Of a stretch of 52,581 bases of DNA, positions 3,270 to 43,699 are shown piece by piece (position 1 is the first letter of the stretch; every line of letters begins with the position of its first letter). A program made the translations under genes and the position numbers. The notes beneath the pieces are model-generated. The model was not told where the DNA came from and searched no databases. It saw only the letters and a program-made list of their open reading frames with translations. The stretch comes from an uncultured bacterium (lineage in GTDB: Bacteria; UBP6; UBA1177), in NCBI GenBank assembly GCA_905233945.1, contig CAJOFY010000011.1, positions 37,185 to 89,765 on the forward strand, given 5' to 3'.

Positions 3270-3292
3270 ACACAATGATTGTGTTTTGTTTT
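3270..3292 (+). promoter_or_regulatory. Hairpin plus T-tract in the leader of the 3318 gene
   Basis: ACACAA (3270-3275) and TTGTGT (3279-3284) form a 6-bp stem with a TGA loop, followed by a T-rich run, about 25 bases before the lipoprotein ATG. The geometry fits a weak intrinsic terminator or attenuator, but the stem is AT-rich and no antiterminator could be defined. Confidence 0.25.
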
Positions 3293-3317
3293 TTGTGTAT
3301 CCTGCGGAGGGTTCTCC

Positions 3318-6158
3318 ATGAAAAAAATCTTTATGTTTTTCATGATTTTAGTGCTTTTTTCAGTTGTTTCGTGCGGCGGTTCAAAAAAAGAGGAAACTGC
3401 CGCCATTAGTGATTCTGACTCAGATACAAATGATGAAGAGATCGGTGAAATTGATGAAACAGATGAAACTGACGGTGATGAGAGCGATGCGGACGATAGT
3501 GATGAAACGGATGCAGATGCAGACGATACAGATCATGCGGCAGGAAGTCAGTGCAGCAAAAATCCATGCAAAAATATAGAAAACTCTACGGGAGAATGTA
3601 TCCCCGGAGAAAACGACTATTCATGCGAATGCAAAGAAAACTACACTTGGGAAGGATATGCCTGGGAAGGACCCCGCTGCAAAGCCGACGAGAGGAAGGA
3701 AAGCTGCACTGGACTTCCCGAAAATGCCCAGTGGACTAAAGTTTCAGAGGTAACGCAGACCTGGAACGGAGAAGATTGGGAGCCTTCCGCAACGGCTGTT
3801 TACAGCGAAGAGATATCTTACAACCGCTGCTATTTCAAATGTCTGCCTTCTTACGTATGGAACGGTGAAAAATGTGCCGAGCCGTGTGAAAACGAACCGT
3901 GCAAAAACATGCCGAATTCCACCGGGACCTGCTTTAATTCAACAGCCGGCAGACATATATGCGAATGCGACGAAAACTACTGGTGGTGGGGAGAAAGACG
4001 CGGCTGCATAGCGCAGAAACCTGCTCTGGCAAACATCTGCACAGGAATGTACTCATGCAGCAGCAACGGCGGCAAGATCGAGTGTCCTGCGGCGGAGGAT
4101 GAAGTTTTTTACGGGCAGGATGCCCAGTATGCGAAGCTTGGTTTCTGTTCCCCTAAGGATTTCTCAGTAAATTCCGACTTTCCGGATGAACCGACTATTG
4201 TAAGCAGAAACACAGGACTAGAATGGCACCATCTGTCTGAATACGCCTCATACTCATGGAATGAAGCCTCCGAGACATGCGGGAATCTGAGTTATGCCGG
4301 GAAAAACGACTGGAGGCTGCCGAGACTGCATGAGCTCATGTCGATTGCGGCTGTCACCGATGAAGACAAGGAACAGAACGAAATATATTTTCCGCTTCAG
4401 GTGAGCGCTCTCTGGGCTTCTGAAATCTTCCAGTACAACAACCAGCATTCGTGGACTTTTTCTTTCCCTTACGGCACCACACACAACAATTCATCTTCTG
4501 CCGGTACTGTGTGCGTCCGCGGCGAAGAATCGCAGGCTCCTGTGTTTGAAGAATCAACACTCAACGGAGATGAGGTTCTTACCGATTCCGCAAGCGGACT
4601 TATGTGGCAGAAAAATTACGCAGAGAAAGGAATGACAAAATGGAAAGAAGCACTTTTCTACTGCGAAAACCTGATTTATGCAGGATATTCCGACTGGAGA
4701 CTGCCGAACAGAAACGAACTTGCTTCAATTATAAACTACGAAAAATACAGACCGGCAGCTGATTTTCCGATCACGCCGATGCATGACATGTTGGTTTTTT
4801 TCTCAGCTACATCACAAGGCGCCATGGTAGACATAGTTGATTTTATCTACGGTGAACTGAAAATGATGTCCAAAGGAGAAGGTGATGTAATTCCTGAGTA
4901 CTTTGCGCGCTGTGTGAGATCTGATGTCTGCGATGAAGGCTATTTCCTGAAAGGTTCCGAATGCGTTAAAAATCCGTGCAAACCGGAATCGTGCGAACTG
5001 GCAGATTCAACAGGTGTATGTATCCCTAAAACCGAATCGGTATATGAGTGCGGATGCGCCGAAGGATACGGCTGGAACGGCTCAAAATGCGTCAATCCGT
5101 GCGACAGTGATCCCTGTTCCGAAGTTGCAAACTCGGACAAAGTCTGCACTCCGGTGAACGCAGCTGTTTATTACTGCGGATGCCTTGAAGGTTTCAGCTG
5201 GAATGACGGCGGATGCAAAGAAGTATCTAATGCTCCGACACTCGGCAACATCTGTTCCGGGCAGCAGAGCTGTTACAGCATGGAAGATGAAATTCAGTGC
5301 CCGGCAGCAGGAAAGGATTTCTACGGTCAGGATGCACAGTATGCGGCAAAAGGAAAATGCGAACAGCAGAGTCTGGTGCTGAAAACTGTTTCAGATGAGA
5401 CCGTCGTCATCGATAAAAATACCGGGTTGCAGTGGCAGCAGGCAATTTCTAAAAAGGCTTACACCTGGAACGATGCTTTTGCTTACTGCGAAAATCTTGA
5501 ATATGCAGGATTTTCCGACTGGAGGATGCCTGCACCCCAGGAAATAATGACAATAGGTCTCTATTCCGGTGCCGGTACGCCGGTCAACACGGGATATTTT
5601 ACGGATATTCCGGTATCCGGCAGCGGCAACTATTTGTGGACATCAGCATTTTACAAAAACGATCCTGAGAGAGTGTGGATATTCCATCCGAACAAAGGTT
5701 TCACCTACTACCTTGCTACAAAATCAAGCATTTACAATGTGATGTGTGTCCGCGGCAAAGGGCTTCCGACAGCGGAATTTATAATATCGGACGTAAGCGG
5801 GGAAAGCATTGCAAAAGACACTTCCAGCGGTCTGGTATGGCAGAAGACCTACACAGAAATAAAAACATGGCAGGAAGCCCTCGCCTACTGCGAAAACCTT
5901 GAATATGCAGGATTTTCCGACTGGAGACTACCGAACAAGAACGAGCTCGCTTCGATCATAAACTACGATTCCGACAACGATTCATGGCCTCTCGACATGC
6001 CGTCAGACTACGGTTTCTGGACATCGACAACATTCTTTTCGAGCTCTATGACAAACGAACTGGCAATAGTGATAGAAATCGACGGCAAACAGGGCTATAT
6101 GCCGAAACACAACAAATTCTATCACTACCCCTACCATGTCCGCTGCGTAAGGAACTAA
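3318..6158 (+). CDS. Surface lipoprotein: acidic stalk, EGF-like modules, four DUF1566 domains (946 aa)
   Basis: The start at 3318 follows GGAGG. A lipoprotein signal peptide ends in VVSC with the lipidated Cys at residue 19. An acidic Asp/Glu/Thr stalk spans about residues 24-68. Cys-rich EGF-like segments of the pattern C-x-P-C-x-N...C-x-C follow near 72-105, 190-225, 550-585 and 590-625. Four DUF1566 (Lcl C-terminal) domains show the cores [ST]GLxW, then W-x-A-x3-C-x-N-L-x-Y-A-G, then DWR[LM]P. They lie at about residues 300-400, 420-530, 690-800 and 815-945. The two halves repeat the same order, so the gene grew by internal duplication. It is probably displayed on the cell surface. The ligand is unknown. 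Confidence 0.85.
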   Translation: MKKIFMFFMILVLFSVVSCGGSKKEETAAISDSDSDTNDEEIGEIDETDETDGDESDADDSDETDADADDTDHAAGSQCSKNPCKNIENSTGECIPGENDYSCECKENYTWEGYAWEGPRCKADERKESCTGLPENAQWTKVSEVTQTWNGEDWEPSATAVYSEEISYNRCYFKCLPSYVWNGEKCAEPCENEPCKNMPNSTGTCFNSTAGRHICECDENYWWWGERRGCIAQKPALANICTGMYSCSSNGGKIECPAAEDEVFYGQDAQYAKLGFCSPKDFSVNSDFPDEPTIVSRNTGLEWHHLSEYASYSWNEASETCGNLSYAGKNDWRLPRLHELMSIAAVTDEDKEQNEIYFPLQVSALWASEIFQYNNQHSWTFSFPYGTTHNNSSSAGTVCVRGEESQAPVFEESTLNGDEVLTDSASGLMWQKNYAEKGMTKWKEALFYCENLIYAGYSDWRLPNRNELASIINYEKYRPAADFPITPMHDMLVFFSATSQGAMVDIVDFIYGELKMMSKGEGDVIPEYFARCVRSDVCDEGYFLKGSECVKNPCKPESCELADSTGVCIPKTESVYECGCAEGYGWNGSKCVNPCDSDPCSEVANSDKVCTPVNAAVYYCGCLEGFSWNDGGCKEVSNAPTLGNICSGQQSCYSMEDEIQCPAAGKDFYGQDAQYAAKGKCEQQSLVLKTVSDETVVIDKNTGLQWQQAISKKAYTWNDAFAYCENLEYAGFSDWRMPAPQEIMTIGLYSGAGTPVNTGYFTDIPVSGSGNYLWTSAFYKNDPERVWIFHPNKGFTYYLATKSSIYNVMCVRGKGLPTAEFIISDVSGESIAKDTSSGLVWQKTYTEIKTWQEALAYCENLEYAGFSDWRLPNKNELASIINYDSDNDSWPLDMPSDYGFWTSTTFFSSSMTNELAIVIEIDGKQGYMPKHNKFYHYPYHVRCVRN

Positions 6159-13352: not shown

Positions 13353-13384
13353 ATCTGCCGTTTTATCGGTGCTTGGAGGAAAAT

Positions 13385-16300
13385 ATGAAAAAATTCATTC
13401 TTTTTATGGTCGTTTTTGTATTGCTTGCAGCCATTGTCGCTTGCGGCGGAAAAAAATCGAAAACCTTGGAGGAAAACGATGCCGATGCTGTCGGAAGCGG
13501 TGATTCCGATCTCGATGACGGTGAATCGGTCGTGACTGACACCGATGGAAATTCAAACGATAGCGAAAACGGCGATGATTCCGACCAGCAGCCTGGCGGA
13601 GACAATGATACCCCGGTTGTGCCTGACAATGATTCCGACAATCCGCCAGATGAGCAGAATCCGTGTAATCCGAATCCATGCACTGAAAAGAACAAGACTG
13701 TCTGCACGGTTACGGGTGCTTCTTATATTTGTTCATGCGACAGGCTTACCTGCGAAATAAACGGTGCCTGTATTGCGGACGGCGATAGAAATCCGGCAAA
13801 TTCATGCGAGGAGTGCAACCGCGACAATTCCAAGACGGCATGGTCGACTGTCGCCGACGGAAGGGACTGCGAGGCTAAAGAGGGACTTATGGGAAGCGGT
13901 ATCTGCCGCAGCGGCGTCTGCGGAGGTTTCGGAACCTGCGACAACAGGGCTTACGGGCTCAAAGCCGGTTCTCCTTGCAATAAGGATGTCGAGTGCGAAA
14001 CAGGTTACTGCTATACCTGGTACGACTGGTCGGGAAGCGGAAGTTACGGCTACGCCAGAGCTTCAGTATGTACCGGAACCTGTAAAGAGGACGAGGATTG
14101 TCCGAACAACATGACCTGCCAGTATTTTGAAGCGAAAGGATATCAGTGTATGCCTCTTTTTGTCGCAGGTGTGGAGAGACCGAGTCCAAAAATGAAGACT
14201 TTCGGGCCGTGCAACGTAAACGAGGACTGCGAAGGCGGGCTCTGCCTTTCCTACGGTGAAGGCGAAAGTTTCTGCTCCAAAGAGTGCTCAAGCGATTCTT
14301 CGTGCGGTTCGTGCGGAAGATGCAAGGATGACGGCGCGAAGCTCGGGTTCATTTACGACAACTACTGCGTTCCAAAAGGAAGCGGCGAACTCGGCGACCA
14401 CTGCCAGTCAGGAATGGACTGCTCGAGCGGCGGCTGTTATGACGGATACTGCACAGTTTCGTGCAGCGGTTTTCTCGGAAGCCTGAAATGCAGCGGAAAC
14501 TATGACTGCATGGAGGATGTTTACTCTGAAGGAAGCAAAACCTGCATCGATAAGACGCGGTTCGATATGCCTGACGGCTCATACTGCAACTACGATGACC
14601 AGTGCGCAAGCGGAAAGTGCATCGAATTCGAGGGTGACAAAATCTGCGGCTCGTACTGTGTCGACAAAGAGGTTACAGATCCCGAAACAGGAAATACGAC
14701 AACTACAAAAACCTGTGCAAACGGCAGTCAGTGCCTTGCCGTAAAGAAATCCGGCAGCATGGGAAGTTATGCGGAATATATCTGCGCTCAGGACAAGATG
14801 CTGAAACGGCTGGAATTCGGCCAGGAGTGCTATTCCGACTGGCAGTGCGAGGACGGATATACCTGTTTTGAAGGGCTTTTCTGCAGCAAAGCCTGCACGA
14901 AAAACGAGGAGTGCGAAATCGACAAAACCTGCTACATATACGGTCAGCAGGAATCGGAAGACGGTGGCGATCCGCAGATTTTCGGCGTTTGCATTTCGAA
15001 AGAGCAGCAGAGCGTCAAAGTCGGCGACTACTGTCCTTACAAATGGTCGTGTGACATGTGCTACACTGACTACACCATTCAGCAGTACTACTGCACGAAA
15101 ACCTGCACAAGCGACTCCGACTGTTTCGATATCGGCGGCTGCTACAACGGAATCTGCCAGAAAGCAATCCCGTACAGAAGCGATATTTACGCTTCCTGCC
15201 GTTTTGATGACGACTGCGAAAAATACACGAACTGCGAACACGGAATGTGCACGAGTAGCTGCTCTGCTGATTCAAACTGCGACGGCTACAACACCGTAAC
15301 TCCGGTCGGAACGCAGAAAACATGCAAACCTTGTGAAACTGACACAGACTGCAAGAAAGTTTTTTATGACTACGGAATGTGTCTTACAGACTACAACGGC
15401 AATAAATACTGCGTTGAAGACTGTCAGGATAACTACACTCTATGCCCGGAGGGAACAAGGTGCAACGGCCAGTACTGCTATCCGATTTCGGGTTCCTGCA
15501 CAGGCGGTAAAGCGTTCTGCAACAGCGAAAGCAACTGCGCGGTTCCGACTCTTCTCGACGACTGGATCTGTGGCACAGACAAAGAGTGTCTCAGCGGAAA
15601 ATGCGGAGAGAGTTACTGTCAGAAGGAGACATGCAGCACTGATGCTGACTGCGGATGCGGATTCAAGGAATGTAAGAGCGGCAGCTGTGTTCCGAAATCT
15701 TCTCTGGGAACACTTGAAATCGAGCCGAATGACACTTTTGCGACGGCTCAGGAAGTGTCTGATGGTTTTGTTTTTGCAGGTTTCGGCCATGTAAGCAACA
15801 ACGAGGATTTCGATTACTTCAAATTTAAGGCGAAAGCTGGTGACTATCTCAAAGTTAGGACACATGCCTACTGCGGCGAGACCAGAAACGATACCTATAT
15901 CGCCCTTCTCAATGCTGACGGTGCGCAGCTCGCAGAGAACGAGGATATGGATTACAGCTATTTCGTGCAGCAGTATTACTATTCCGAAATAATGAACTAT
16001 CAGGCACCTTACGACGGTTACTACTACGTTGTTGTAAGGCAGTCGCCGACTTATCGCCAGGCTCTGTACAATATGCCTTACATCCTTGAAGTCGACGCTT
16101 TCACTCCGGATGCAAACAATACATGCGAAGGTGCAAAAAAACTTGAGCCCGGAACCTATGATGAAAGCTTCAGCAATGCAGTAGATTCGCTTGATACGGC
16201 CGGATGTTCCAATTATTACGGCTACGGCCCCGACCTGTTCTACAAAGTCAGCATTCCTGCGGGAAAAGTCATGACATTGCGTGTAACTCCGAAATCTGCC

Positions 16301-17281
16301 GCTTTAAATCCGACAATATCTGTTCTTTCCGGCTGCGGAGAAATTGCGGATGTCTGCCTTGCAGGCAGCTCTTTCGGCACTTTCGGAAGTCCTGAGGAGA
16401 TAGTTTACTACAACGATTCGGAAGCCGACAAGAACTACATTGTTGTTGTCGATACCGTTGTTGCTCCGCTTGAATATGACTTTACAATCCAGCTCGATAT
16501 CGGCGATACGCCGCCTGTTCCCGAAAACGACAAAGCTGATGGCGCAATACCGCTCGAAGGGAGAGGAAATATCCAGGGATTCACGATTTCTGCTGAGGAT
16601 GATTTTGCTCCGGCAGAGGGAATCTGCAACGGAGTTACGCTTGCCGGCAAAGATGTAGTTTATTCTATGGCTATGGCCGACGGTGACTATTTCCATGCCG
16701 AAATAACATCGTCATTCTCGGCTTCGGTTTATGTCGTAAAAGCTGATGAACCCGAAAACTGCCTCTACGGCGGCAATCTCATCAACTTTGAAACCAATTC
16801 CGAAACTGCCGGAACATACTATCTCGTAATTGATTCATCCGATGCAAACACTTACGGAACATTCTCGTTCACATACATCAAAGAGGCGACCGATAAGGAT
16901 TCATGCAAAGGAATCTGTTCGTCATCGTACAGAATGTGTCTTCCCGACAAGACTGATATCTGCATGTGCGATTCGTCGCTCGGGCTGCTCTATACATCCA
17001 ACTGCGACACCTACTGCCGCTCGGATGAAGTCGGCGGTCTCAGCGGCTCGTGCGAAACAAGCTACACGGACAGCGGTTCAATCGAAAGAAACGGCTGTGT
17101 CTGCACCTATGACTGTTCCGACACCGCAAAAGTCGAGGCCCTTTGCAACGAGAAGGAACCTTCAAACTGCACTTGCGGACCTGCCGATGCCTGCTCGTGG
17201 AAAAACAACGGAACCTGCGATGAAATGTGCAACGACTTTTTCCCGCTTGATCATTTTGATGATTCGGCTGATTGCCAGTAA
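13385..17281 (+). CDS. Giant cysteine-rich surface lipoprotein with PPC-like domains (1298 aa)
   Basis: A lipoprotein signal has its lipobox Cys at residue 20 (AIVACGG), then an acidic Asp/Ser/Asn/Glu stalk to about residue 95. Residues ~100-770 consist of repeated Cys modules of the loose form C-x-x-D-x-D-C-x2-G-x-C. A hand count gives roughly 115 Cys in the protein, so it must be disulfide-bonded outside the cytoplasm. EIEPNDTFATAQEV near residue 778 opens the first of two or three bacterial pre-peptidase C-terminal-like beta domains, with DxDYFKFKAKAGD and YYVVV strands. A Cys-rich tail closes the protein. GGAGG precedes the ATG. It probably acts in adhesion or recognition, but no ligand or enzymatic motif is seen. 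Confidence 0.82.
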   Translation: MKKFILFMVVFVLLAAIVACGGKKSKTLEENDADAVGSGDSDLDDGESVVTDTDGNSNDSENGDDSDQQPGGDNDTPVVPDNDSDNPPDEQNPCNPNPCTEKNKTVCTVTGASYICSCDRLTCEINGACIADGDRNPANSCEECNRDNSKTAWSTVADGRDCEAKEGLMGSGICRSGVCGGFGTCDNRAYGLKAGSPCNKDVECETGYCYTWYDWSGSGSYGYARASVCTGTCKEDEDCPNNMTCQYFEAKGYQCMPLFVAGVERPSPKMKTFGPCNVNEDCEGGLCLSYGEGESFCSKECSSDSSCGSCGRCKDDGAKLGFIYDNYCVPKGSGELGDHCQSGMDCSSGGCYDGYCTVSCSGFLGSLKCSGNYDCMEDVYSEGSKTCIDKTRFDMPDGSYCNYDDQCASGKCIEFEGDKICGSYCVDKEVTDPETGNTTTTKTCANGSQCLAVKKSGSMGSYAEYICAQDKMLKRLEFGQECYSDWQCEDGYTCFEGLFCSKACTKNEECEIDKTCYIYGQQESEDGGDPQIFGVCISKEQQSVKVGDYCPYKWSCDMCYTDYTIQQYYCTKTCTSDSDCFDIGGCYNGICQKAIPYRSDIYASCRFDDDCEKYTNCEHGMCTSSCSADSNCDGYNTVTPVGTQKTCKPCETDTDCKKVFYDYGMCLTDYNGNKYCVEDCQDNYTLCPEGTRCNGQYCYPISGSCTGGKAFCNSESNCAVPTLLDDWICGTDKECLSGKCGESYCQKETCSTDADCGCGFKECKSGSCVPKSSLGTLEIEPNDTFATAQEVSDGFVFAGFGHVSNNEDFDYFKFKAKAGDYLKVRTHAYCGETRNDTYIALLNADGAQLAENEDMDYSYFVQQYYYSEIMNYQAPYDGYYYVVVRQSPTYRQALYNMPYILEVDAFTPDANNTCEGAKKLEPGTYDESFSNAVDSLDTAGCSNYYGYGPDLFYKVSIPAGKVMTLRVTPKSAALNPTISVLSGCGEIADVCLAGSSFGTFGSPEEIVYYNDSEADKNYIVVVDTVVAPLEYDFTIQLDIGDTPPVPENDKADGAIPLEGRGNIQGFTISAEDDFAPAEGICNGVTLAGKDVVYSMAMADGDYFHAEITSSFSASVYVVKADEPENCLYGGNLINFETNSETAGTYYLVIDSSDANTYGTFSFTYIKEATDKDSCKGICSSSYRMCLPDKTDICMCDSSLGLLYTSNCDTYCRSDEVGGLSGSCETSYTDSGSIERNGCVCTYDCSDTAKVEALCNEKEPSNCTCGPADACSWKNNGTCDEMCNDFFPLDHFDDSADCQ

Positions 17282-37041: not shown

Positions 37042-38070
37042 TCAGTAGTATATTTTTCCTCTTTTTCCGTAAATAACTCTCGTCCCGTCTGCACCGGGAA
37101 GGTAAACGGCGTCCGCGAGGTCGTGGTCTGACGTGAGACGTGCGCCGTCGCCTGCAATTAAGTTCGGTCCGAGAACTATTTCGCTGCTATTCTCTATTTC
37201 ACAGTTGTTGCCGATTACTATCGGCGGTTCCTGCTTGATAGGGGGAAAGTTCAGCTTTTTGCCGAGTGCGACAAAAAAATCGTTGTTTTTCTCTTTTAAG
37301 TCTTCGTATTTTGTATGGTAATAATCGTTCAGAATGTCGGTTTCGTCGAAAAATTTCAGCGGAAGAGTCCGTAGAAGGTCAAACGAGCAGTCAAGATAAC
37401 CGTCGGGTGTTCCCATGTCCCACCAGTTTCCTTTGATATAAAAAGCGTTGAGGTTCCTTCTCGATTTTATTGCCCGTTTATAGACATAGCTTGTGATCGA
37501 AACGAAACAGCCTTTAGGAATAAATTCAAGGAGCTGCGGATTTATGACATGGATTCCGGTAAACATCGCGTTTCCTTCCGGAATTGTGTCGTATAATGAC
37601 TCGTTGAGCATTCTCACGATTTTGTTCCCGTCAACGCGGATAACCGAGCGCGGATCGTCCTGCGGTGCCGGAAGGATTCCCAAAGTCGCCAGCGCGTCCG
37701 AGTGATTGTGGCTTTCAATCATTTTGTCGAGGTCAAAATTGAAAATCGTATCGGAGTTGATGACGATGAAAGGCTCTTTTTTGACGAAAGGTTCCATTGA
37801 GGCGATCGCGCCGCCGGTTCCAAGAATCTCCTTTTCAGGCAGATACTCGATACTGACGCCGTATTTGCTTCCGTTTCCAAGCGCTTTTGCGATTTTTTCG
37901 CCGTGCGAGTGGAGGTTGATGTAAATTTCCTTGATTCCGTAATGTTTCAGAAAATAAATGTTGTATTCTATTGTCGGGCGGTTGAGAACCGGAATCAGCG
38001 GTTTGGGGATGTTGTCGGTAATAGGCGCTATTCTTGTGCCGAAACCGGCTGCTAAAATCAGTGCTTTCAC
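37042..38070 (-). CDS. Sugar-phosphate nucleotidyltransferase, MurU-like (342 aa)
   Basis: An NTP_transferase with ALILAAGFGTRIAPITDNIPKPL (nucleotide-binding signature), LGTGGAIAS, VINSDTIF (metal Asp) and NWWDMGTPDGYL. A C-terminal hexapeptide-like region follows (PIVIGNNCEIENSSEIVLGPNLIAG). Because it overlaps an AmgK-like kinase gene by four bases (GTGA), it is probably MurU: uridylylation of MurNAc-alpha-1-phosphate to UDP-MurNAc in the cell-wall recycling bypass. A mannose-1-phosphate guanylyltransferase is the main alternative. At 342 residues it is longer than Pseudomonas MurU because of the C-terminal extension. The GTG start follows GGAG. Confidence 0.8.
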   Translation of the reverse strand: MKALILAAGFGTRIAPITDNIPKPLIPVLNRPTIEYNIYFLKHYGIKEIYINLHSHGEKIAKALGNGSKYGVSIEYLPEKEILGTGGAIASMEPFVKKEPFIVINSDTIFNFDLDKMIESHNHSDALATLGILPAPQDDPRSVIRVDGNKIVRMLNESLYDTIPEGNAMFTGIHVINPQLLEFIPKGCFVSITSYVYKRAIKSRRNLNAFYIKGNWWDMGTPDGYLDCSFDLLRTLPLKFFDETDILNDYYHTKYEDLKEKNNDFFVALGKKLNFPPIKQEPPIVIGNNCEIENSSEIVLGPNLIAGDGARLTSDHDLADAVYLPGADGTRVIYGKRGKIYY

Positions 38071-39110
38071 TTTGCTCTCCCGTTGTCGAATTCAGGAATA
38101 TAGGGGGCCAGGAGCTCCAGAATTTTGTCAAGCTCAAGTTTCAGAAGTGCGTCCTTCACATAGCCGAGTGTCGGCAGAATGTACGGGACGAACCACTCTT
38201 TCCCTTTGACCTGATTGAGGTATACGAATCTGCCTGCGTCCTTCATTTTGCGCTGCAGAGTCTGGATGTAGAATGCGTGCTCGAACGATTCGTAGTCGTT
38301 GAAAAAGTATCTTGCGACATCGTTTGTATCCCAGAAATGATGAAGAAGAGAGTCGAGTTCTTCAGGCGAAAGTGTGATATATGAGTCGCGCAGCAGCGAA
38401 ACAAGGTCGTAGACAACCGGCGCCATCAGCGCATCCTGAAAGTCGATCAGATAGAGCGAGCCATCTTTTGACATGATGTTTTTTGACTGGAAATCCCTGT
38501 GCGAAAAAAAGTAGGGGAGATTTGCGAGCTCTTTTGCGATTTTCAGGCAGTGCTTTTCAAGTTTCGGCCACAGATTTTTGTAGGGAATGTGGTAAACCCT
38601 TTTTGCAATCATGTATTCGTAAAAATGGTAAAACTCGTCCATGAAAAGTTTTGTGGTGAAGCGTCTCTTGTCTGCCGGAGTGTTGAATGAAGTGCGGGTG
38701 TAAAGGCGTTTCTGAACGTCGGTCAGGAGGTCTTCGGCATCTTTGATGTATTTGAATTTGTGGCTGTTGTCGTTTTCGATAAGTTTGAAAAGGGTCGAAT
38801 CGCCGAGATCTTCGAGAAGCATCACTTTTTGTTCTGGAATAACTGCAAGGATTCCTGGCACTTTGATTCCTAAACCGGAAAGAAAATCCCTGATTGCCAT
38901 GAAGTCCGTGAACGAATCGCCGCGCCCGAATTCGCCGGGTTTGACGTTTGCGACCCTCATCATCAGAACGCTCTCTTTTTCAAAGGTGATTCTTACATAC
39001 GATCTTCCGGAAGCGTCACCGAAAAGCGGTTCCGCAAAGAAATCCAGAATCTTTCTTCCTTTGTAAATGTTGAGAAGCTGGTAAGCCAAAAAATTGGTTT
39101 CGTAGTTCAT
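38067..39110 (-). CDS. AmgK-like anomeric sugar kinase (347 aa)
   Basis: An aminoglycoside-phosphotransferase-fold kinase of the COG3178 group. The N-lobe shows FGDASGRSYVRI and LLEDLGDSTLF. The catalytic loop is SHRDFQSKNIM (Asp, Asn), and the metal motif IDFQDALMAPVVYDLVSLLRDSY is the strongest AmgK hallmark. AmgK phosphorylates MurNAc and GlcNAc at the anomeric carbon. It overlaps the gene on each side by four bases (ATGA from the membrane protein, GTGA into the MurU-like gene), so the three are one operon. Confidence 0.85.
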   Translation of the reverse strand: MNYETNFLAYQLLNIYKGRKILDFFAEPLFGDASGRSYVRITFEKESVLMMRVANVKPGEFGRGDSFTDFMAIRDFLSGLGIKVPGILAVIPEQKVMLLEDLGDSTLFKLIENDNSHKFKYIKDAEDLLTDVQKRLYTRTSFNTPADKRRFTTKLFMDEFYHFYEYMIAKRVYHIPYKNLWPKLEKHCLKIAKELANLPYFFSHRDFQSKNIMSKDGSLYLIDFQDALMAPVVYDLVSLLRDSYITLSPEELDSLLHHFWDTNDVARYFFNDYESFEHAFYIQTLQRKMKDAGRFVYLNQVKGKEWFVPYILPTLGYVKDALLKLELDKILELLAPYIPEFDNGRAK

Positions 39111-39860: not shown

Positions 39861-39904
39861 CCGGCGGTAAAAATTTTTGTTCTATTTTTGTGCGGCAGGT
39901 AAAC

Positions 39905-42900
39905 ATGAGAAATTTAATTCCAGATCTCAACCAGTTGGGTTATTTTGAAATCAATTCGGACAAAAAATCCGGTTCAGTCGAAGCATCGGTGATGTTTGTT
40001 GATATATCCGGTTTTACAAATATGACAAGAAAGCTCATGTCGCGCGGAAGCGACGGCGCCGAAACGCTTTCAGTCTTTATGAACACGATATTCAATCCGC
40101 TTATCGAGGCGGTTTACAATCAGAACGGATTCATCCTCAACTTCGCCGGTGACGCGTTTACAGCTGTTTTCAAAGGTGACAACGGCAGACGGGCGATAAC
40201 CGCGGCGTTTACGATTCACCGCTTTTTCACCGAAAATCCTTCGCTTTACCATCGCGGCGAGGCTTTCAAAATTTCGGCAAAAGCCGGGATTTCAATAGGA
40301 AAATTCAACTGGATCGCGGCAAAAGGCGAGGAAAACCTGAGACATTTCCTTTTCTTCGGAGATGTTGTTGACGAGGCTGCCGAAGCGGAACATCACTGCC
40401 AGGCGAACGACATCTGTATCAACGACAAGGTTTTCTCGATTCTTAAAACTGACTGCTGCACGCACATCAAGGACGGGGCTTACTTTGTTGACGAGCTTCT
40501 TGTTCCGGCTGAAGAGACTCCGGCTGTCGCAGCGCCGAAACTCGAAGATCTCGAAATTTTCATTCCGCGCACGGTTATTGAGCAGGAAATAGCAGGAGAG
40601 TTCCGCGAAGTCGTTTCGCTTTTCATCTCGTACCAAATCTCGAAAGATATGGCTGAAATCGAAAAAATGCTTGAGTATCTGGCAAGCTACGTTCAGAAAT
40701 ACGGCGGCTACATCAGCGGTTTTGACTTCGGTGACAAGGGAGCAACGCTTTTGGCCCTCTTCGGTGCGCCGGTAAGCTACGAGGACAATCTGGAACGCGC
40801 GATAGACTGCGTCGCCGAAATCAGGAAAAATTGTGACACAGAGCTCAGAAGCGGCATAACACAGGGTGTTGTCTATGCCGGATTCGTAGGAAGTCCGAAA
40901 CGTGCGGCATATACGGCTCTCGGCGACAACGTAAACCTTTCGGCGAGAATTATGATGAAAACTCCGTTCGGCGCAGACTGGATTGCCGGAAAGGCTGCCG
41001 AAAAGGCAAAAAGTGTTTTTGCTCTCGAAAGCAAGGGCGAATTTGCATTCAAGGGAATCGATGTTCCTATTGAAGTCTTTGAAATAAAAGGACACCTCAA
41101 AGTCGAGGAGGATGATACATTCTCGACCACTTTCACCGGAAGAACCGAGGAACTTAAAATTCTCTGCGGAACCCGTGACAAATGCCGCGAAGAAAAACGG
41201 CTTTACTGCACGGCAATATACGGCGAAGCAGGCATCGGAAAATCGCGTCTCATCTACGAGGTCCGCAAAAATTCAGGACAGGATTTCAAAGTTTTTACCC
41301 TTAAAACTGATACGATTCTCCGCCAGTCCATGAATATGTTCACGAGCTTTTTCCAGACACTTTTCAACCAGAACGAAAATGCGTCGTCAAGCGAAAATCA
41401 GGCTGCTTTTGAGAAGGTGTGGAACGCGTTCGCGGCTGAAGTCGCCAATAAAAAAGAGGCTTTTCTTGCTGCAAGACCATATATCGAAGCCCTTGCCGGA
41501 ATTATCCGCGAAGGTTCGGTCGTTGACATTCTTGATGCAAAAAGCCGTTACGAAAACACGATGTATGCAGTCTGCGAGTTCTTTGTCGCAATGGCCGAAA
41601 CCAAACCGCTTATGATTGTTATGGACGATATGCACGCTGTTGACAGCGATTCTCTTGCCATTGTGAATGCGCTTCTCAAGGCTCTTGATGAATATCCGGT
41701 CGCGCTTTACATCATGTCAAGGCTTAACGACGACGGTTCGAAACCCGAGATCGTCACAGCGTTTGACAGATACAGCGACTTCGTCATCGATAAAATGCAG
41801 AAAAGCGATATGCCGATGCTCATTAAAAATATCATCGGTGAAAGGGGAAACAGCGAACTCAATAACTTCGTATTTTCGAGAACCGACGGAAATCCGTTCT
41901 TTATCGAACAGCTCCTGTTTTTTATGAAAGAGAAGAAATATATTCAGAAAACGGGGAGATATTACGCCTTGACAAGCAACAAAACAGAAGTGCCGAGCGG
42001 CGTCAACTCGCTTTTGGTAAGCCGTCTCGACAGGCTTTCGCAGCATTTGAAAGACCTTGTTTTCAGGGCGTCGGTCCTCGGAAACAACATTGACCTTCTT
42101 GTTCTGAACGAAATCGCGCAGGAGCAGGACAAGAAAAACATTCCGAATCTTCTCAAGGAGGGAGTCGACAAACTCGTCTGGAACGAGGCTTCGTCTCTTC
42201 TCTATTCTTTCAGGCACGCACTGCTCCGTGATGCGGCTTACTCGATGCAGCTCAAGGCGCGTCTGAAGGAAATCCACAGGAAAGTGGCGAAAGCTATTGA
42301 GAACAACTACAAGGATGAAGAGAAATTCTTCTCGACCCTCGCTTTCCACTACGAAAAGGCCGAAGAGACCGAAAACGAGATTTTCTACCTCAAAAAAGCG
42401 GCGGATTACGCGAAATCGCAGTATCACAACCAGGAAGCTGAAAAAATGTACGAAAAGCTGCTCGGTCTTCTCAAGGATGACGTCGAAATCATCAAAGTCG
42501 ACCACAGTCTTGCGAATGTCTATAAAATCGAAGGAAAATGGGATCTTACAGAAAAGATTTTCAGAGAGAGTCTTGAGCGTTCGCAGAAAATCGGAGACAA
42601 GCTGCTCATTGCGACAAGCAAGAAAGAACTTGCCAACATGATGCTTCAGAAGGGGCGTTATGATGAGGCCAGTCCGCTTCTTGACGATGCCGATACTCTC
42701 TACGGGGAACTCGACAATATTCAGGGAAAATGCGATATCGAAGGTTACCGCGGGCTTATCCACTACTATAAAGGAGAGCTTGACGATGCAGTCGAGCACT
42801 TCACCGAAAAGCTCAGACTTGCGGAAATCATCGACGACAAGTCGGCAAAAGCCCTTTCTTACCGCTACATGGGCGGCGTTGCATACTACCGCGGCGACCA

Positions 42901-43699
42901 CCAGAAAGCGCTTCAGCACTACAAAAACCAGCTCAAAATTTCAAAGGATAACGAGAATCTGCTTGATGTCGCGGTTGCTGAAAACAACCTAGGACTTGTC
43001 TATTCGCACCTCAACGACTTCAAAAACGCCGCGAAATTCTACCGGCGTGCTCTTGAAACCTACAAAAAAGTGGGTATCAGGCAGTATATATGCTACACGG
43101 CAAACAACCTCGGCGAACTTAAATTCTGGCTTGGCGAATACGACGAGGCGAGATCTCTTGTCGAAGAACAGCTTGAAATTGCTACGGAACTCGGAATTCA
43201 GCGCCACGTTGCCATTGCATACATGATGTTGGCCAACCTCAGCAAAAAGCAGGGTGATTTTGCGAAAGCTGAGGAATTTTACAACAAGGCGATTGCCATC
43301 GGAAAAGAGCTCAACGTGAACAACATTCTCTGTGAATTTTTGTATGAGTACGCTGACCTTCTCTATCTCACCGGCAGATACGACGAGGCTTATACGCTTA
43401 ATGAAGAGGCCGGCAAAATGATTATCGAGGTCAACCGCGTTGATTTCCTTTTCAACAGCCTGCTTCTGAAGTGGAAAATAGTCGCAGTAAAAGATCCTGA
43501 AACCGCAGTCAGGGAAACCAAAAATCTTTTCAAAGATGATCTGAGCGACGAAAAGAAGGCTGAGATAAACTTCGTTCTTTTCCGTCTCACACACGAAGAA
43601 TCTTACCGTAAAGAGGCAGAAAAACTCTTCACTTCGTTATATGAAACAGTTCCGAAAATAACCTATAAAGACAAACTCGAAATTCTCAGGGCAAAATAA
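39905..43699 (+). CDS. Tandem class III nucleotide cyclase with AAA ATPase and TPR domains (1264 aa)
   Basis: Two class III cyclase domains, residues ~27-190 and ~230-395. The first has both metal-binding Asps (Asp33 in FVDISGF, Asp83 in FAGDAF), but its later motif reads GDVVDEAAEAE, where the usual Asn and Arg are replaced. The second keeps those residues (ALGDNVNLSARIM) but lacks the first Asp (SLFISYQ). Together they should form one complete active site, like the C1/C2 pair of soluble adenylyl cyclase. An ATPase follows at ~400-750 (Walker A YGEAGIGKSR, Walker B LMIVMDDMHAVD). Residues ~820-1240 are TPR repeats. No membrane segment. It probably makes cAMP under control of an unknown input. 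Confidence 0.88.
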   Translation: MRNLIPDLNQLGYFEINSDKKSGSVEASVMFVDISGFTNMTRKLMSRGSDGAETLSVFMNTIFNPLIEAVYNQNGFILNFAGDAFTAVFKGDNGRRAITAAFTIHRFFTENPSLYHRGEAFKISAKAGISIGKFNWIAAKGEENLRHFLFFGDVVDEAAEAEHHCQANDICINDKVFSILKTDCCTHIKDGAYFVDELLVPAEETPAVAAPKLEDLEIFIPRTVIEQEIAGEFREVVSLFISYQISKDMAEIEKMLEYLASYVQKYGGYISGFDFGDKGATLLALFGAPVSYEDNLERAIDCVAEIRKNCDTELRSGITQGVVYAGFVGSPKRAAYTALGDNVNLSARIMMKTPFGADWIAGKAAEKAKSVFALESKGEFAFKGIDVPIEVFEIKGHLKVEEDDTFSTTFTGRTEELKILCGTRDKCREEKRLYCTAIYGEAGIGKSRLIYEVRKNSGQDFKVFTLKTDTILRQSMNMFTSFFQTLFNQNENASSSENQAAFEKVWNAFAAEVANKKEAFLAARPYIEALAGIIREGSVVDILDAKSRYENTMYAVCEFFVAMAETKPLMIVMDDMHAVDSDSLAIVNALLKALDEYPVALYIMSRLNDDGSKPEIVTAFDRYSDFVIDKMQKSDMPMLIKNIIGERGNSELNNFVFSRTDGNPFFIEQLLFFMKEKKYIQKTGRYYALTSNKTEVPSGVNSLLVSRLDRLSQHLKDLVFRASVLGNNIDLLVLNEIAQEQDKKNIPNLLKEGVDKLVWNEASSLLYSFRHALLRDAAYSMQLKARLKEIHRKVAKAIENNYKDEEKFFSTLAFHYEKAEETENEIFYLKKAADYAKSQYHNQEAEKMYEKLLGLLKDDVEIIKVDHSLANVYKIEGKWDLTEKIFRESLERSQKIGDKLLIATSKKELANMMLQKGRYDEASPLLDDADTLYGELDNIQGKCDIEGYRGLIHYYKGELDDAVEHFTEKLRLAEIIDDKSAKALSYRYMGGVAYYRGDHQKALQHYKNQLKISKDNENLLDVAVAENNLGLVYSHLNDFKNAAKFYRRALETYKKVGIRQYICYTANNLGELKFWLGEYDEARSLVEEQLEIATELGIQRHVAIAYMMLANLSKKQGDFAKAEEFYNKAIAIGKELNVNNILCEFLYEYADLLYLTGRYDEAYTLNEEAGKMIIEVNRVDFLFNSLLLKWKIVAVKDPETAVRETKNLFKDDLSDEKKAEINFVLFRLTHEESYRKEAEKLFTSLYETVPKITYKDKLEILRAK

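Follow-up and report, generated by a model that had tools for sequence, protein, structure and literature searches.

Human soluble adenylyl cyclase (sAC, ADCY10) holds its C1 and C2 cyclase domains in one chain, where they form a single composite active site with the metals bound by C1 and an Asn/Arg pair contributed by C2. The splitting of one active site over two domains is an already known design of this family. Lys95 and Arg176 bind bicarbonate in the human enzyme (PMC12250328, PMC12867704), and sAC is often called an ancient bicarbonate sensor (PMC11006738). Metazoan sACs that have lost either residue are pH-regulated and lack HCO3− or Ca2+ activation; the salmon (Lys95Asn) and sea urchin (Arg176Asn) enzymes are regulated by pH and not activated by HCO3− (PMC12867704).

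We analyzed a stretch of DNA of 52,581 nucleotides (hereafter the window) from an uncultured rumen bacterium, whose closest named records are metagenome genomes from rumen and gut labeled UBP6 or Spirochaetales. One of its genes most probably encodes a class III nucleotidyl cyclase of the bacterial sAC-like tandem type, with a C1/C2 pair and one active site in a single chain, a signal relayed through TPR and STAND modules and no human-type bicarbonate switching expected. What is new in this protein is that both the bicarbonate switch and the base-contacting Lys are missing.

Domain organization, predicted fold and relatives

The gene spans positions 39905..43699 (+) and encodes a 1264-residue tandem class III cyclase–STAND-type ATPase–TPR protein, as delineated by its intact ORF, Pfam matches and full-length orthologues. 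The reading frame opens with an ATG at 39905, contains no internal stop and closes with a stop codon ending at 43699; the program-made ORF starts at a GTG at 39890, ahead of this ATG. Pfam detected two Guanylate_cyc stretches (PF00211, the class III nucleotidyl cyclase homology domain; 48.6 bits against a cut-off of 21.9), followed by AAA_16 and many TPRs. C1 covers approximately residues 26–184 (39980..40456, +) and C2, defined by the second PF00211 stretch, approximately residues 230–397 (40592..41095, +), each aligning with its human sAC counterpart. The STAND-type P-loop ATPase with its helical/winged-helix part comprises approximately residues 410–860 (41132..42484, +) and the TPR array, identified from Pfam TPR families and matches to TPR structures, approximately residues 862–1170 (42488..43414, +). 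The first-pass annotation had anticipated this succession of an ATPase and a TPR array behind the cyclase domains.

Among solved structures, human sAC is the best match in sequence (E about 1e-27): its C1 aligns with domain 1 and its C2 with domain 2, both in register. With 17 window and locus sequences as input, AlphaFold modeled residues 1–410 (pLDDT 84.2, pTM 0.81) with the two cyclase domains as an intramolecular pair, and the first 24 Foldseek matches in the PDB are human sAC crystal structures that cover both domains in one chain, with a TMq of up to 0.82. Membrane adenylyl cyclases (TMq 0.69) and single-domain bacterial cyclases rank below sAC. The superposition of this model as one chain, structure prediction having been proposed as a check, thus supports an intramolecular C1/C2 pair and agrees with the earlier parallel with the C1-C2-NTPase layout of mammalian sAC, the NTPase being predicted to fold as a STAND ATPase. 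A large C-terminal part with a P-loop NTPase, here followed by helical repeats, is a further shared feature, the matches including no solved structure of the human C-terminal part. The two proteins are about 22% identical in the fold alignment, and the window protein differs from human sAC by a shorter C1-C2 linker as well as by the substitutions at Lys95, Arg176 and Lys334 described below.

In a search of 61 genomes, full-length or partial orthologues were recovered through the genus, family and order, at identities from 83% down to 34%; full-length orthologues are 82–83% identical within the genus and about 40% identical in a sister family of the order. The protein resembles the sAC-like tandem cyclase-ATPase-TPR proteins of Chloroflexota and other bacteria in domain order, approximate length and split half sites. 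It is distinguished from these proteins, including the Chloroflexus enzymes (Kobayashi et al. 2004), by Gly272 in place of Lys/Arg, by Asn79/Ala159 at the bicarbonate positions and by its phylogenetic placement: the window's order forms its own well-supported clade in a tree of 115 tandem proteins, and human sAC lies on a long branch in the opposite half of the tree.

The cyclase gene stands alone and is conserved across its order. A comparison of neighborhoods across relatives revealed no conserved upstream neighbor that could be an operon partner; convergent DegT aminotransferase and DUF1846 genes adjoin the cyclase gene within the genus only. In one congener (G013, 97% complete; L161 4176-6975), the gene is cleanly absent at the syntenic site, DegT being directly followed by another gene, and in a second (G007; L162 1405-3903), the orthologue, located beside DegT, stops after 832 residues, immediately ahead of the TPR array; a natural form without TPRs, decay or an assembly fault may account for it. 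The gene is therefore not essential. Elsewhere in the window, overlapping nucleotidyltransferase and APH-type kinase genes (37042-39110, −) form an arrangement that we take to resemble MurU/AmgK of cell-wall sugar recycling. A 1302-residue ORF (13373-17281, +) has no Pfam match at E <= 1e-5, and a 959-residue protein (3279-6158, +) contains four Lcl_C domain stretches.

Complementary half sites in C1 and C2

The alignment pairs sAC Asp47, Asp99, Lys144, Thr405, Asn412 and Arg416 with Asp33, Asp83, Lys126, Thr337, Asn344 and Arg348 of the window protein. C1 contains both metal-binding residues, Asp33 (codon 40001..40003, +; motif MFVDISGFT), which is invariant in 114/114 bacterial proteins, and Asp83 (codon 40151..40153, +; motif FAGD), along with the pyrophosphate-contacting Lys126 (codon 40280..40282, +). 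Asp156 and Glu160 occupy its Asn/Arg positions. The segment from Thr337 through Asn344 to Arg348 (40913..40948, +; motif GDNVNLSAR) provides the transition-state half in C2, where both metal Asp positions are replaced, by Ser242 and Ala280. All catalytic positions are kept except the base-contacting Lys.

The metal Asps are hence confined to C1 and the Asn/Arg pair to C2, as the first-pass annotation had read them, with one correction: it had C2 losing just the first Asp, and both are gone. Since C1 keeps Asp33/Asp83 and C2 keeps Asn344/Arg348 without metal Asps, one composite active site within one chain is well supported at the level of sequence, in line with that annotation and with the predicted single-chain superposition on human sAC.

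Asp33, Asp83, Lys278, Thr337, Asn344 and Arg348 are invariant in the window's clade (17/17 proteins), and Lys126 is Lys in 16/17 and Arg in 1/17. Among 97 other bacterial tandem proteins, from Chloroflexota, Myxococcota, Cloacimonadota, WOR-3 and others, the equivalents of Asp33, Asp83, Asn344 and Arg348 are kept in 97/97, 97/97, 94/97 and 89/97, respectively, whereas the dead-site positions are degraded: C1 retains no fixed Asn/Arg, and C2 never has Asp at its first metal position. This invariance in the clade and near-invariance outside it indicate that the complementarity of the half sites is real, maintained and family-wide. The split-site design is therefore typical of a known, widespread bacterial family and not special to the window gene.

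Such conservation also bears on a pseudo-cyclase reading, in which the tandem would bind ATP as a sensor or scaffold, make no cAMP and leave the output to the STAND/TPR part. Loss of the base Lys (Gly272) would suit it, as would the presence, at rank 33 of the fold matches, of a tandem cyclase-like ATP-binding protein of Pseudomonas aeruginosa (PDB 6yii), for which a literature search returned nothing useful. However, the 6yii match is much weaker than that of sAC (TMq 0.56 vs 0.82), and a dead site would not need the clade-wide retention of the metal Asps, the pyrophosphate Lys (apart from the one Lys-to-Arg change), Thr, Asn and Arg. We regard this reading as quite unlikely.

Bicarbonate positions and the STAND/TPR module

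At the bicarbonate positions, the alignment places Asn79 (codon 40139..40141, +) opposite Lys95 and Ala159 (codon 40379..40381, +) opposite Arg176. The Lys95/Arg176 pair of mammalian-type sAC is thus absent from the window protein, and Asn79 and Ala159 are constant across its clade (n = 17). None of the 114 sampled bacterial tandem proteins has Lys95 and Arg176 together, and only the human sequence has both. In the 97 other bacterial proteins, Arg occurs at the 176 position in 0/97 and Lys at the 95 position in 8/97, the latter count being biased because some of these proteins were retrieved by a peptide pattern in which the Lys95 position must be Asn or Gly. The Chloroflexaceae sample, whose members belong to the same family as a Chloroflexaceae record, was found by profile without this bias, and its tandem proteins lack the Arg176 equivalent too.

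The rumen is rich in bicarbonate, and a Thr at the Thr405 position, as in Thr337 here, has in the past been put forward as a hallmark of cyclases that respond to bicarbonate; a literature search for such a bicarbonate marker returned nothing useful. These points, together with the overall likeness to sAC, speak for a bicarbonate-activated adenylyl cyclase like the mammalian enzyme, and so does a Chloroflexus sAC-like enzyme reported to be bicarbonate-stimulated, according to the citation of Kobayashi et al. in PMC11006738. The sampled Chloroflexaceae tandem proteins nevertheless lack the Lys95/Arg176 pair as well, so these residues are not an absolute criterion in bacteria, which could use another bicarbonate site. 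We consider mammalian-like activation very improbable for the window protein given the invariant Asn79 and Ala159 and the behavior of the salmon and sea urchin enzymes. The first-pass suggestion of bicarbonate as a likely activator is consequently not retained: since both human residues are replaced across the clade and metazoan sACs with a single such loss respond to neither HCO3− nor Ca2+ (PMC12867704), bicarbonate is not expected to activate this protein via the human switch.

The C-terminal modules suggest a different input. An AlphaFold model of residues 395–880 (pLDDT 83.1) has Apaf-1 and MalT, both STAND proteins, as its best fold matches. The Walker A motif GEAGIGKS (residues 440–447; 41222..41245, +), the Walker B-like motif MDDMHAVDSDS (residues 573–583; 41621..41653, +), in which Asp575, Asp580 and Asp582 are invariant, and a GxP-like GNPFF motif are conserved in 18 aligned proteins. 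On the basis of these motifs and of the predicted fold, we assign the ATPase to the STAND type, with which it shares the P-loop, Walker B, GNPFF, a helical/winged-helix arm and a superhelical repeat sensor. Unlike Apaf-1 and MalT, which carry a CARD or a DNA-binding domain, the window protein would have its N-terminal cyclase pair as effector. The Apaf-1/MalT-like fold makes a TPR/STAND-gated cyclase likelier than a bicarbonate sensor. The segment comprising the second cyclase domain and the ATPase (residues 254–846) is shared with the TOMM system kinase/cyclase fusion (TIGR03903, NCBIfam); assignment to that model was rejected at 147.7 bits, far under its cut-off of 705.75 bits.

We propose that C1 and C2 pair face to face within the chain to create a single active site, in which C1 (Asp33, Asp83) would hold the two metals while the ribose/phosphate and a portion of the base would be held by C2 (Thr337, Asn344, Arg348); the other, pseudo-symmetric site would be dead. 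The TPR array is likely to bind a protein or another ligand, and the STAND ATPase would act as an ATP/ADP-dependent switch relaying this signal to the cyclase pair, which may then alter its rate of cyclic nucleotide formation. The cell's cNMP-binding proteins would then sense the cyclic nucleotide.

Several observations weigh against this proposal. In human sAC, neutralizing Lys95 or Arg176 is reported also to reduce catalytic activity (ref. 21, as cited in PMC12867704), the gene is missing from one congener and TPR-less in another, and no operon partner is conserved that would point to a pathway. With Gly replacing the adenine-contacting Lys throughout the clade, the protein could also differ in activity or base choice.

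The base pocket and the predicted cyclic nucleotide product

An intact base pocket, with Lys334 of sAC matched to Lys278 in a DKG loop, was considered and dropped. The gapless alignment, with Lys334 and FDKG 338-341 numbered as in PMC12867704 Table 1, pairs Lys334 with Gly272 (codon 40718..40720, +) and identifies Lys278 as the Lys of the FDKG loop (GDKG in the window protein). Of the mammalian-type Lys334/Thr405 base contacts, the window protein therefore keeps Thr, as Thr337, and has Gly in place of Lys, and both states are found in 17/17 clade members. The position equivalent to Lys334 in the 97 other bacterial tandem proteins is Lys in 28, Arg in 24, Glu in 13 and Gly in 11, with other residues in the remainder. 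With Lys in just 28/97 of these relatives, Lys334 is a hallmark of mammalian-type sAC but does not define the bacterial family.

Nucleotide specificity is uncertain because Gly272 replaces the base-contacting Lys throughout the lineage; judged by its residues, the likeliest product chemistry is cAMP from ATP. A cyclase with another or relaxed base specificity (GTP or mixed), its sAC Lys/Thr base pair having become Gly/Thr, would accord with the invariance of Gly272 in the clade and the variability of this position across the bacterial relatives. Weak evidence in the same direction comes from two of the genome's cNMP-binding cassettes, which carry RTA, a sequence found in cGMP-binding kinases. 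However, the Glu/Cys pair of guanylyl cyclases is absent, Thr337, the equivalent of a base contact in sAC, is retained, and cAMP can still be produced by class III enzymes that lack the Lys, such as Rv1900c. Moreover, Lys334 of sAC reaches the ATP base only via water (PMC12867704 Table 1). We judge altered or relaxed specificity to be unlikely. In Chloroflexaceae and related genomes (L122-L158), many tandem sAC-like paralogues occur per genome with diverging base-pocket pairs (Lys/Thr, Glu/Thr with Arg416 changed to His, Gln/Gly), which suggests, from these residues, that nucleotide specificity may have varied or been lost among them.

Besides the tandem protein, the 2.65-Mb genome (99.7% complete) encodes a single further class III cyclase (L001), which has one domain and transmembrane-like stretches. 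Of the five cyclic-nucleotide-binding domains in the genome, three have canonical phosphate cassettes (FGETALIEKIARTAS, FGEMALVRNIPRTAT and FGEMALIDNQPRSAD). Possible cyclic nucleotide effectors are L034, a membrane-like protein with two cNMP-binding domains, and L037, in which a PP2C-like phosphatase is joined to one such domain.

We advance tentatively, and regard as somewhat unlikely in its entirety, the broader view that bacterial tandem sAC-like cyclases, those of the window's order included, are gated by STAND/TPR modules and are not human-type bicarbonate sensors, that the Lys95/Arg176 switch was a later eukaryotic addition, and that the Gly-for-Lys lineage has an unusual nucleotide preference. 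Together with the work on fish and sea urchin sACs (PMC12867704), the lack of the human switch pair in the 114 sampled bacterial relatives makes the age of bicarbonate sensing testable, and the compact bacterial clade of the window protein is one place to test it.
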